NCBI RefSeq assembly: GCF_001431485.1
Contig: NZ_LDJM01000045.1
Location: 1-64,000, forward strand
Length of the DNA stretch: 64,000 nucleotides
Reading direction: 5' to 3'
Source: Stenotrophomonas ginsengisoli
GTDB taxonomy: Bacteria > Pseudomonadota > Gammaproteobacteria > Xanthomonadales > Xanthomonadaceae
Part shown: positions 26,671-53,715 of the stretch, piece by piece
How positions within the stretch are numbered: the stretch's first letter is position 1
Layout: every line of letters starts with the position of its first letter
Translations under genes and position numbers: made by a program
The notes under the pieces: model-generated
Databases searched by the model: none
What the model saw: the letters and a program-made list of their open reading frames with translations, nothing else
What the model was told of the DNA's origin: nothing

Positions 26671-27306
26671 ATGCAAGGATTGAAAACCGCCCCCACCGGC
26701 ATGCGTACCGCCACCCGTGCCAACCGCTTGCCGCTGCTTGCCATGAGCGTATTGCTGACAGCCTGCCACGCACCACAGGCCGAGTCGGCTGACACTTCAC
26801 AGCCCCGCGCGGAAAACACAATCGCCACCACCGCCCCGGCTGCGGAACCGACACCGGCAGCCGGCGATCAAGCCCAAGCCTTGACCACCCAGCCTCCCGC
26901 CACCGCGGCAACCGAAACCCACCCCCAGATCGATGCGGACGGCAATCCGTATCGCCCCGATGATTCCTACAGCCGGGCCAACCTACGGCCGCAGTACCGA
27001 CAGTGTGTCGCGGCCAGCGGAGCCGATATATCCGCACTGCGCGCCTGCATGGATGAAGAATTCCAACGGCAGGATGAGCGGCTACGCCTGGCTTGGGGAG
27101 CTATAGCAAACGGCCCGGACAGTTCATTCAAAGACAGACTGGCCGATGAGCAGCACATATATATGCGTGACACCTACCAAAAATGCCACTACGACCCGAT
27201 AACTAAAGATCAAAACCAATTGATTGCTGCGCAACCCTGCCTAACCAATCGCTACGCCAATCGTTCCGCTGCGCTTGAGGCATTGATGCACAACGCTCCG
27301 ATGTAG
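26671..27306 (+). CDS. LprI-like lipoprotein, candidate T4SS-effector immunity protein (copy 1)
   Basis: A 211-residue lipoprotein: signal peptide with lipobox LTAC (Cys about 32), an Ala/Thr/Pro-rich spacer to about residue 85, then an LprI-like (DUF1311-type) helical domain. Conserved elements are QYRQCVAASGA, ACMDEEFQRQDERLRLAWG, LADEQ and CLTNRYANRSAALEAL, with paired cysteines for periplasmic disulfides. LprI-type proteins inhibit lysozyme-like enzymes. In Xanthomonadaceae such lipoproteins serve as immunity (X-Tfi) to peptidoglycan-cleaving effectors. It is a tandem paralogue of the next gene: both begin MQGL and share the leader sequence just upstream. Confidence 0.75.
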   Translation: MQGLKTAPTGMRTATRANRLPLLAMSVLLTACHAPQAESADTSQPRAENTIATTAPAAEPTPAAGDQAQALTTQPPATAATETHPQIDADGNPYRPDDSYSRANLRPQYRQCVAASGADISALRACMDEEFQRQDERLRLAWGAIANGPDSSFKDRLADEQHIYMRDTYQKCHYDPITKDQNQLIAAQPCLTNRYANRSAALEALMHNAPM

Positions 27307-27470: not shown

Positions 27471-28109
27471 ATGCAAGGATTGAACTGGGCACATGCTTCC
27501 AATCACGTCATCGCGCGCACTTCCTGCTGGCCGATCCTTGCACTGAGCTTGACGCTATCTGCTTGTCAGCCCCGGCAGACTGATGCCGCCATATCAGCCC
27601 CACCAGTTACGGCAGTGGTGCCCAACCCACTGGGTAAAACCCGATCCACCGCAGAGTTTTCGACATCCCCGGATGCGCCCACTCCCGCCGGACAATACGC
27701 ATCACCGTCGACCATGGAAAGCACAGACAGCGCGCACATCCTCGCAGAAGAAGACGATGTGCATCTGCCGGATAACTCGTACAACCAGGCCAACCTGCGG
27801 GCGCAGTACGAAACTTGCGTATCCGCCAGCGGCGGCGTGACGCCCGCCATTCAAGCCTGTATGGATGAAGAATTCCGTTGGCAGCAAGCACGCTTGCGTA
27901 ATGCATGGGAAACCATCGCTGATGGCCCGGACAGCACATACAAGGACGAACTGGCCGACGAGCAGGATGCCTACATACGCGATACCGACCGTTACTGCCG
28001 CTTCGACCTCACCCCCCAAGGCCAAGGCCAGATGCTGGATGCCCGATCCTGCCGCATCAACCGCTACGCCAACCGTACGGATGCTCTGGAGAAATTGATC
28101 AACAAGTGA
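27471..28109 (+). CDS. LprI-like lipoprotein, candidate immunity protein (copy 2) next to the effector
   Basis: A 212-residue lipoprotein paralogous to the preceding gene. Signal peptide with lipobox LSAC (Cys about 31), low-complexity spacer, then the same domain: QYETCVSASGG, ACMDEEFRWQQARLRNAWE, LADEQDAYIRDT and RINRYANRTDALEKL. The upstream bases (TTCCCTAGAGGCAGACCG) resemble those of copy 1, so the duplication includes the ribosome site. It ends 25 bases before the effector start, the usual immunity-then-effector order, and is therefore the likelier cognate antidote. Copy 1 may guard against a related toxin. Confidence 0.78.
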   Translation: MQGLNWAHASNHVIARTSCWPILALSLTLSACQPRQTDAAISAPPVTAVVPNPLGKTRSTAEFSTSPDAPTPAGQYASPSTMESTDSAHILAEEDDVHLPDNSYNQANLRAQYETCVSASGGVTPAIQACMDEEFRWQQARLRNAWETIADGPDSTYKDELADEQDAYIRDTDRYCRFDLTPQGQGQMLDARSCRINRYANRTDALEKLINK

Positions 28110-49381: not shown

Positions 49382-50257
49382 TCAGCCAGCCGCCTCGGCG
49401 GCCTCGATGGTGTTCTGCATCAGGGTGGCCACGGTCATCGGGCCGACACCGCCGGGGACCGGGGTGATCCAGCTGGCACGCGCGGCGGCCGCCTCGAAGC
49501 CGACGTCGCCGACCAGGCGGCCATCGTCCAGGCGGTTGATGCCCACGTCGATCACCACTGCACCTGGCTTGACCCACTCGCCCGGGATCAGCGAGGGAAT
49601 GCCGACGGCCACCACCAGGATGTCGGCATTGCGCACGGCGCGCTCCAGCTCTTCCTTGGGGGTGAACTTGTGGCAGCTGGTCACGGTGCAGCCGGCAATC
49701 AGCAGCTCCAGGCCCATCGGCCGGCCGACGTGGTTGCTCACCCCCACGATGGTGGCATTGCGGCCACGCACCGGCTGGTCGGTATGGCCGAGCAGGGTGA
49801 CGATGCCGCGCGGCGTGCACGGGCGCAGGCCGAACTCGCGCAGGGCCAGGTGGCCGACGTTCTGCGGGTGGAAACCATCGACATCCTTGCGCGGGTCGAT
49901 GCGCTGGATAAGCCGGTTGGCATCGGGGATGCCCGGCAGCGGCAGCTGGATCAGGATGCCGTGGATGGCCGGATCGGCATTGAGGCGGTCGATCAGGCTG
50001 GCCAGCTCGGCCTCGGTCGTGCCCTCGGGCAGATCGAAATCATGCGCCACGATCCCCACCTTCTCCGCCGCACGGCGCTTGTTGCGCACATACACCGACG
50101 AGGCAGGGTCGCCGCCGACCAGGATCACCGCCAGCCCCGGCTGCGTCTTGCCCTGGCCAAGGCGGGCATCGACCCGGGTCTTCAACTCATCAAGCAATTG
50201 TTCTGCAATGCGCTTGCCATCCAGGATGCGGGCAACATCAGGGGTCTCAACGGTCAT
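49382..50257 (-). CDS. folD: Bifunctional methylenetetrahydrofolate dehydrogenase/cyclohydrolase
   Basis: A 291-residue enzyme interconverting methylene-THF, methenyl-THF and formyl-THF with NADP. Active-site Y-x3-K is in [28 protein letters not shown] and the nucleotide-binding [16 protein letters not shown] are present, followed by [10 protein letters not shown] and [18 protein letters not shown]. Full family length. Its start is about 45 bases from the 3' end of the antiporter gene. Confidence 0.96.
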
Positions 50258-50302: not shown

Positions 50303-52154
50303 TCAGCCGACGCCGTCAGGCCGTTGCTGCACCTGCCCCGCTTCGCTGTCCAGACGCTGGGCATCGCGCCGCGGCCGGGTGAAGGGCACCGGCTGCGGCT
50401 GGCCGGCGTTGCCATAGAGCAGATCACTGTCGGCCATGGGATCGGCCAGGGCGACCTCCAGTGCCAGGCGCTGCCCATCCAGCTCGCGCACCCGGGCAAT
50501 CACCTGTTCGGCCTGCTCGGCATCATCGCCCAGCGCCTGCAGGGCCTGCGCGCCCATGCGCAAGGCCGATTCGAAAGTCTCGCGCACCGGCGCATCGACG
50601 CCGGCAGCGACCAGGCGGCAGGCATGGCCACGGTCCCAGGCCCGCACCACCACCGGCACCAGCGGCGCCAGGACCCGGACCTGGGCCAGGACCCGGTCCG
50701 CCTGCTCGGCACCCTGCACGCAGATCACCACCAGCCCGACCTGGTCGATGCCACAGGCGCGCAGCACATCCAGCCGGGTGCCATCGCCGTAATAGATGCG
50801 CAGGCCGAAGCGCTGCGCGGCACGGATCATGTCCGGGTCGGCATCGATGATGGTGACCTCGGTGCCCCGCGCCAGCAGGGCCTGGCTGACCACCTGGCCG
50901 ACCCGGCCGAAACCGATCACCAGGGCCTGGCCGGCCTGTTCCTGTGGCCGCTCCAGATCGGCATCGTCCAACGGCTGCCGACGCGCGCGCAGGCGACCAT
51001 GGACCAGCACCGCCAGCGGTGTCAGGGCCATCGACAGCACCACCACCGCGGTCAACTGGGCATGCACCCGGGTCGCGATCAAGCCGGTGCCGGCAGCGGC
51101 GGCGTACAGCACGAAGGCAAATTCGCCGCCCTGGGCCATCAGCACCGCACGTTCGGTGGCCACGCCCCCGCTGCTGCCGCACAGCCGCGCCACCAACCAT
51201 ACGCAGGCAGCCTTGGCCAGCATCAGGGCCAGGACCAGGGCGCCGATCCAGCGCCATTGCTCGGCCACTACGGCCAGATCCAGGGCCATGCCGACACCGA
51301 GGAAGAACAGGCCCAGCAACAACCCACGGAACGGCTCGATCTCCGCCTCCAGCTGATGCCGGAAGGCCGATTCACTGAGCAGCACACCGGCCACGAAAGC
51401 GCCCATCGCCATCGACAGCCCGCCCCACTGCATCAACAGGGCCGCGCCCAGCACCACCAGCAAGGCGGCGGCGGTCATCACCTCGCGCGCGCCGGCCCGG
51501 GCCAGCAGCACAAACAACGGGTCCAGCAACCAGCGCCCGGCGGCCAGCAACAGCAGCAAGGCCAGCAGCCCCAGGCCCAGCGACTGCCACAGGCCGCCAC
51601 CGTCGGCATGCGCGCCAGCCGGCGCCATCCACGCGGCCAGGGCCAGCAACGGCACGATCAACAGGTCCTCGAACAGCAGGATGGAGACGATCTGCTGCCC
51701 CGGACGGGTAGACAGCTGGCCACGTTCGGCCAGCAGCTGCATCACCACCGCGGTGGAGGTCAGCACGAAACCGGAGGCGGCAATGAAGGCCACCGGCCAG
51801 GCCAGGCCAGGCCAGGCCGGCAGCGTGGCAGATCGCCGTGAGCAATGCCGTGCAGCCCAGGATCTGCGCGCTGCCCAGGCCGAAGATCTGCCGTCGCAAT
51901 GACCACAGGTGGCTGGGCCGCATCTCCAGGCCGATCAGGAACAGGAACAGCACCACCCCCAGCTCGGCCAGGTGCAGGATGGCCTGCGGATCACTGAACC
52001 AGCCCAGGCCAAGCGGCCCGACCAGGACCCCGGCGGCGAAATAGCCCAGTACCGAACCCAGGCCCAGACGCCGGAACAAGGGCACCGCGGCCACCGCCAC
52101 ACCGAGCAAGGCCACCACCGGCAACAGCTGCCCCGTTTCCTGTCCTGCAGCCAT
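50303..52154 (-). pseudogene. KefB/KefC-type K+/H+ antiporter gene frameshifted at a GGCCA repeat
   Basis: A CPA2-family antiporter split in two frames. The 5' part (52154 to about 51815) encodes GQLLPVVALLGVAVAAVPLF, GYFAAGVLVGPLGLGWF and LFLIGLEMRPSHLWSLRRQI. The rest (about 51810 to 50303) encodes VAFIAASGFVLTSTAVVMQL, GVLLSESAFRHQLEAEIEPF and a TrkA-N domain (VIGFGRVGQVVSQALL). The frame breaks inside a run of GGCCA units at 51795-51818. Losing two units or gaining one would join both parts, so the gene may be phase-variable rather than dead; a sequencing error is also possible. All other conserved segments look intact. Such antiporters expel K+ in exchange for H+, often under electrophile stress. 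Confidence 0.82.
51795..51818. repeat. GGCCA pentanucleotide tandem repeat inside the antiporter gene
   Basis: Four full GGCCA units plus GGCC. Its length sets the reading frame of the antiporter gene. A unit of five bases shifts the frame on every slip event. Confidence 0.9.
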
Positions 52155-52262
52155 GGCCCACACCGTCAGCAAAGAAGATGCCGACTCTAGCAATGCCGGC
52201 CCTGCCCGTGCGTGCATGGCAGTGCCCGAGGCCGGGTAGCCACTGGCAAGGCGGCAGATACG

Positions 52263-52317: not shown

Positions 52318-53715
52318 TTACTTGCCCTTGACGTGCTTCATCAGGCGGCGCTTGCGCGCGATCTGGCGATCGGTCAGCGGGTTCTTCTTGCCCTCGTACG
52401 GGTTGGCACCCTCACGGAACAGGAAGCTCACCGGGGTACCGACCAGCTTGAAGCGCTTGCGGAAGAAGTTTTCCAGATAGCGCTTGTACGAATCGGGCAG
52501 CTCCTTCAGGCGGGTGCCATGGACGATGAAGGTCGGCGGGTTGGAACCGCCCGGATGCACGTAACGCAGCTTGGACACATGCCCGCGCACCGACGGCGGC
52601 GGATTGCTTTCCACCGCCACTTCCAGCGCCTTGTTGACCTCGGCGGTGGAAAACTCCTTGGTCGCCGAAGCATGGGCACGGTGGATGGCAGCAAACAGCT
52701 CGCGCATGCCGGTACCGTGCACCGCAGAAATACGCACGGCTTCGGCCCAGGGCACGAACGGGAACTTCAGCGACAGCAGGGTTTCGGCCTGCTCACGCTC
52801 GTAGTCACTGCGCCCGTCCCACTTGTTCAGGGCAATCACCAGCGCCTTGCCCGCATCAAGCACGGCACCGAGCACGGTGGCGTCCTGATCGGTCACGCCT
52901 TCAGAGGCGTCCAGCATCAGCACCGCGACCTGGGTCTGCTCGATGGACTGCATGGTCTTGAAGACGGAGAACTTCTCCACCGCCTCGTCCACGCGCGAAC
53001 GACGGCGCAGGCCGGCCGTATCGATCAGGCGGTACTTGCGATCGTCACGCTCCAGATCCACCGCGATCGAGTCACGGGTGGTCCCCGGCACGTCGGAAGC
53101 GATCATCCGCTCCTCGCCCAGCAGACGGTTGACCAGGGTCGACTTGCCCACATTGGGGCGGCCGACGAAGGCGATACGGATACGCTCCGGATCATCGTCC
53201 AGGGTTTCGGTGGTGCCTTCTTCGGGCAGGCGCTCCAGCACCTCCTCGACCAGGTCATCCAGGCCCTGACGGTGGGCCGCGGAAACGGCCAGCATCTCGC
53301 CGAAACCGTAGTGGGCAAAATCCGCACGCATGCCGTTGGCTTCCACGCCATCGGCCTTGTTGATCAACAACATGGTCGGGCGGGAGAGCTTGCGCAGCCA
53401 CGCAAGGATTTCATCGTCCAGCGCCGACGGGCCTTCACGACCATCGACGACAAACAGGATCAGGTCGGCTTCGGCAGCCGCAGCGCGGGATTGGCGCGCA
53501 GTCGCGCCAGCCAATCCCTCTTCTTCGCCGGCAATACCGCCGGTATCCACGATCAGGAACGGATTGTCGGCATCAAGCCGGCAAGTGCCGTAATTGCGGT
53601 CACGCGTGACGCCCGGTTCGTCATGAACCAGGGCGTCGCGGGTACGCGTGAGCGCATTGAACAGTGTGGACTTGCCGACATTCGGCCGTCCGACCAGGGC
53701 GACCAGAGGCAACAT
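52318..53715 (-). CDS. der: Ribosome biogenesis GTPase Der (EngA)
   Basis: A 465-residue double GTPase needed for 50S subunit maturation. G1 motifs are [15 protein letters not shown] (about 8-22) and [15 protein letters not shown] (about 182-196); G3 DTGG/DTAG and G4 NKAD/NKWD are present in each domain; a C-terminal KH-like domain follows and ends with a basic tail. It follows bamB by 12 bases in a conserved gammaproteobacterial gene order. Confidence 0.96.

Follow-up and report, generated by a model that had tools for sequence, protein, structure and literature searches.

A GGCCA repeat array at the frame break of a KefB/KefC-like antiporter gene in Stenotrophomonas ginsengisoli

The antiporter locus and its pentamer array

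The window, a stretch of 64,000 nucleotides from Stenotrophomonas ginsengisoli (contig NZ_LDJM01000045.1, positions 1 to 64,000), contains a KefB/KefC-like antiporter gene of the CPA2 family between intact folD and der/engA genes (Table 1). The gene does not form a single unbroken ORF of about 600 codons. Both halves are open from end to end and their starts lie 361 nt apart, so the halves are one frame off. Orthologue alignment moved the start of the N-terminal product to the ATG at 52154 (the ORF itself spans 51372..52217), and the stop of this frame is at 51372-51374.

Table 1. Features of the antiporter locus in the window
Feature	Position	Strand	Details
KefB/KefC-like (CPA2) antiporter gene, frame-broken at the array	50303..52154	-	each half matches PF00999; TrkA_N matches only the C half
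N-terminal half, 112 codons, ATG at 52154, start of the transport domain	51819..52154	-	PF00999 positions 4-94
C-terminal half, 496 codons from GTG, remaining exchanger domain and TrkA_N, in a different frame	50303..51793	-	
GGCCA array, 4.8 copies (coding strand GGCCT/TGGCC)	51795..51818		24 nt, +10 nt versus relatives
N-frame product as sequenced, about 260 residues, out of frame past the array	51372..52154	-	ORF 51372..52217
folD, intact flanking gene	49382..50257	-	
der/engA, intact flanking gene	52318..53715	-	

Both halves match the exchanger domain PF00999 above the curated cut-offs (138.9 bits for the C half, 61.6 bits for the N half), and the C half also matches PF02254 (TrkA_N/RCK; 73.6 bits, above the curated cut-off). 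These are the two domains of a CPA2 monovalent cation:proton antiporter and, with the 361-nt offset, they confirm the KefB/KefC-type halves one frame apart that had been described in a sequence-only reading of this DNA. That reading had also placed the break exactly at the GGCCA repeat. A six-frame search of the genome with PF00999 agrees, with profile positions 4-96 at 52100-51819 and positions 97-371 at 51817-51017; because the two pieces meet at 51819/51817, the frame break falls at the array.

In NCBIfam, both halves match KefC (NF002924) and KefB (NF002973) best; these are glutathione-gated K+ efflux antiporters. The gene resembles them in its Na_H_Exchanger and TrkA_N domains and its CPA2 family membership, but differs in being interrupted and in having halves that score under the equivalog cut-offs. 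The C half alone scores 391.8 against the KefC cut-off of 752 bits and 362.7 against a cut-off of 804 bits, as expected because each query is half a protein. The KefB/KefC subtype and glutathione gating are candidate assignments only. The genome encodes three further PF00999 exchangers, all uninterrupted, that might cover for a lost antiporter.

Tandem Repeats Finder reports the array with period 5, unit GGCCA and 100% match, and it is the sole period-5 row among 50 rows in the window. Three consecutive GGCCA copies are found at a single site genome-wide, at the antiporter, and the four-copy pattern has no other occurrence in the genome and none in 90 congeners. We surveyed five-base arrays in a sample of 447,608 bases, 13% of the genome (the window and twenty stretches), in which the antiporter array is the longest and the next reaches 17 nt. 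None of 12 order-4 Markov simulations, each of 447,608 bases, produced a five-base array above 18 nt. Chance does not account for this non-triplet repeat inside a reading frame, and a slippage or duplication event is needed for an array of 24 nt. Arrays of 12, 13 and 14 nt (20, 5 and 4 observed) are no commoner than the simulated means of 42.7, 13.1 and 4.1 (4.08), so a native run of 2.8 copies (14 nt) would be unremarkable.

Its quasi-palindromic repeat (GGCC-A-GGCC) allows the array to fold when single-stranded. Compared with shuffles under DNA parameters, the coding strand with flanks folds at z -3.35 and the other strand with flanks at -2.36; the array alone folds at z -1.76. Single-strand folding of the array may help slippage.

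Tract length, frame and gene retention in relatives

The array region was aligned for the first 142 loci fetched, of which 128 passed a coverage filter; four of these were copies of the window, leaving 124 loci of relatives. The anchored coding segment is 77 nt long here versus 67 nt in 111 of the 124, including all 56 same-genus loci (46 genomes). The other 13 have segments of 64-74 nt, and in some of them the way gaps were placed at the segment edge blurs the length. Neither a 77-nt segment nor a GGCCA tract occurs in any of the 124 aligned loci, and the tract is not conserved in related lineages, with four perfect copies likewise lacking from the 90 congener genomes. As relatives have 67 nt and lack the array, the two extra units arose in this lineage, most likely gained through slippage. 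The unit arithmetic by which the sequence-only reading restored the frame holds up: relatives' segments are shorter by 10 nt, which is two units.

The frame itself is intact almost everywhere else. The 166 loci with both halves (147 distinct C-half proteins, as some genomes were fetched repeatedly) were counted after exclusion of loci below 45% identity or with one half only, and 163 have a single open frame throughout. In two the sole stop comes late, close to where the aligned span ends on the C-terminal side, and in one the frame breaks at a different place in the N half. The latter (L053) is the orthologue of Polaromonas eurypsychrophila, an independent N-half break at L053 1663-1973. Among same-genus relatives, every orthologue listed is open over at least 613 aa. 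The frame argument rests on the segment lengths of relatives and on the two halves read separately.

Programmed ribosomal frameshifting could yield a full protein from the two frames, and it would fit the retention of both halves and the somewhat better folding of coding-strand DNA near the array than of its shuffles. We set it aside as extremely unlikely: 165 of the 166 relatives' loci have no need of a frameshift, the extra 10 nt form a simple repeat, and inspection by eye showed no familiar slippery heptamer at the junction.

We also consider a sequencing or assembly error, in which case the isolate would truly have the length found in relatives and an intact gene. The genome is a draft of 99 contigs, but the array site is internal to its contig and, at 24 nt, the array is shorter than a short read. 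An error of 10 nt, exactly two units, is an atypical miscall. Comparison with two congeners, G007 (which has no kef to compare) and G018, also brought up no further genuine frame break in the window. Flagged for frame were 5 of 40 matched ORFs versus G007 and 2 of 14 versus G018; judged by eye, these were put down to antisense or overlapping ORFs, to tandem paralogues or to an over-long start. An error of this kind is very unlikely.

The antiporter gene is often missing from the genus. A protein search found an orthologue (E below 1e-100) in 52 of 60 congeners and none in 8, and a DNA search found one in 81 of 90 and none in 9, including the closest congener found. Since some congener assemblies are fragmented, gene order was checked where possible. 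In four genomes (G007, G012, G020 and G029) a single contig carries both der and folD, and kef is missing from the space between the two; the contig of a fifth (G016) ends too early to show the gap between der and folD. Of the 30 congeners searched with Der, G007 comes closest (97%) and is without kef, and G018 (Der 94%) retains an intact orthologue. We read the antiporter, repeatedly absent in the genus, as dispensable.

The der-folD gap of G007 encodes a rhodanese/ThiF-type gene (L146 1755-3325), and congeners differ in this gap. This gene is absent between 52154 and 52318 in the window, and the S. ginsengisoli genome has no close match to it (best 31%, partial).

Divergence of this antiporter copy

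The C half has about 57-61% identity to any congener orthologue and the N half 70-75% to the same-genus orthologues listed. The flanking genes are more conserved: FolD has 86-90% identity to the same-genus loci that hold most of FolD and 94.5% to G007, and Der has 81-97% identity to congeners. Divergence of the C half beside conserved FolD and Der (81-97%) may reflect either fast evolution or an unsampled donor.

A quick tree with 115 rows gives this copy an end branch of 1.27, where the median is 0.063; a more careful one with 39 rows gives 1.25 versus 0.14. The copy has changed at 24 of 267 columns that are otherwise invariant across the genus and family rows; with each row left out in turn, the next-highest departure is 9 of 276 (L031, from another family). 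C-half pN/pS is 0.56-0.68 when this copy is paired with four congeners and 0.27-0.51 when the four are paired with each other. N-half values are 0.37-0.44 with this copy, overlapping the 0.17-0.44 found among relatives. We read these values as suggesting that constraint weakened before the frame broke.

The copy retains 243 of the 267 invariant positions, the codon-position GC of the C half is of coding type (0.78/0.47/0.87), and outside the array neither a stop nor a second frame break interrupts the gene. The otherwise open frame, the retained residues and the coding-like GC argue that the gene was functional until recently and against long decay.

The tree places this copy outside the family, but constrained placements with the family, the genus or G018 were not rejected (p-AU 0.171, 0.249 and 0.15). 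Because this copy is the sole flagged long end branch and the constraints stand unrejected, we do not claim transfer. Transfer out of an unsampled source could explain the fast divergence and is a live alternative. The hunt for a closer orthologue covered 100 relatives, 90 congeners by DNA, 246 other family members (an even draw out of a larger group) and, from a contig scan, the 80 best of 87 loci. No closer orthologue bearing the tract was found among the loci listed, where the top identity is about 61%.

Probable slippage, possible switching and the fate of the gene

The frame break is probably the result of a slipped-strand expansion specific to this lineage, and the allele most likely represents a recent loss of function in an antiporter gene that is dispensable. 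The ancestral gene would have had a short native pentamer run of about 2.8 copies that encoded something like GLAWPV. The coding-strand tract GGCCTGGCC... reads GGC CTG GCC TGG CCG, so ordinary codons can yield a short native run. Two units may then have been added, by slippage or by a 10-nt tandem duplication, and with 10 extra nt the reading frame would be lost. Translation from the ATG at 52154 is predicted to produce the first quarter of the transport domain, to run out of frame past the array and to stop near 51372. The predicted product of about 260 residues would be native for only about the first 120, with the greater part of the exchanger domain and the entire TrkA_N domain absent. 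With these missing, the sequenced isolate very probably has no active form of this antiporter. The event looks recent because the rest of the frame is still open. The array, the frame break, the 10 nt in excess of relatives, the intact gene in relatives and its repeated absence in the genus are observed; the slippage step, the loss of function, its recency and the absence of a selected switch we infer.

The gene is similar to tandem-duplication frameshift pseudogenes in its lineage-specific 10-nt gain and in that relatives have the gene intact or have lost it outright, but unlike them its remaining reading frame is still open. If this is a plain frameshift, it is a further case of a short repeat creating a loss-of-function allele, and an illustration of how one assembly can imitate phase variation.

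Phase variation is the alternative in which slippage of the pentamer reversibly switches the antiporter on and off and the switch is kept by selection. The array is a non-triplet tandem repeat within an otherwise well-kept reading frame, it is far longer than chance would give, its quasi-palindromic GGCC units can fold as a single strand, and a switch in the OFF state would look identical to this frame-broken gene. Weighing on the other side are the absence of the tract from every relative compared and the lack of other candidate coding switch arrays in the 447,608 bases (five-base arrays of at most 17 nt, four-base arrays of at most 13 nt). The target would also be an inner-membrane K+/H+ antiporter that is often lost in the genus. 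To our knowledge, this lineage is not known for slipped-strand switches. We regard a selected switch as unlikely. The sequence-only reading had proposed one: its slippage survives as the natural cause of the break, with 10 nt being two units, and its switch is disfavored by the tract being in 0 of 124 relatives' loci, the single array in the 13% sample, the frequent deletion of the gene and its fast evolution. Even without selection, slippage could well revert at a certain rate.

Published cut-offs for five-base units differ. Four full copies satisfy the cut-off of 4 used in one scan (PMC5084427) but are below the cut-off of five used by PhasomeIt (PMC6321876). A precedent with about four five-base copies in a coding sequence, where gain or loss of units shifts the frame, is Haemophilus influenzae hsdM, for which length variation among strains and a high switching rate are reported (PMC2651432); the same paper quotes about 1e-4 per generation for tetranucleotide tracts. 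Because a four-copy pentamer switches hsdM there, a real switch in the antiporter has some likelihood. The hsdM gene is a restriction-modification gene with reported variation (PMC2651432), whereas the gene here encodes a transporter and is from one genome of its species. A limited search of the open-access PMC literature, in the text available, found no case of a phase-variable Kef-type antiporter. A study of Bordetella hinzii evolution was set aside as a precedent, since the kefC_3 change given in the available text is missense (PMC8302680).

It is quite unlikely that the array is a contingency locus switching a CPA2 K+/H+ antiporter, such that cells would be with or without one route of K+ efflux and pH control. 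If such a switch were true, repeat-driven switching would reach beyond surface structures and restriction systems into basic ion balance. The prediction would then be mixed populations whose cells vary in how well they tolerate potassium, pH or electrophile stress.

The genome contains other repeat arrays. There is a 61-nt perfect array of the heptamer CAAGGTC with 8.7 copies (L156 6701-6761, G000:C4), around which no long ORF is prominent. About 320 bp from it, a sequence at approximately L156 7079-7112 resembles a chromosomal dif (XerCD) site. Long hexamer arrays of up to 78 nt are found at L167 569, 1780 and 7876 (G000:C15) and at L169 14-54 (G000:C17). A six-base unit keeps the frame, so these may be repeats inside proteins. 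Elsewhere in the window, the neighboring ORFs at 26671-27306 and 27471-28109 (211 and 212 aa) both align to one and the same stretch of a single G007 protein and are therefore probably a tandem duplicate.
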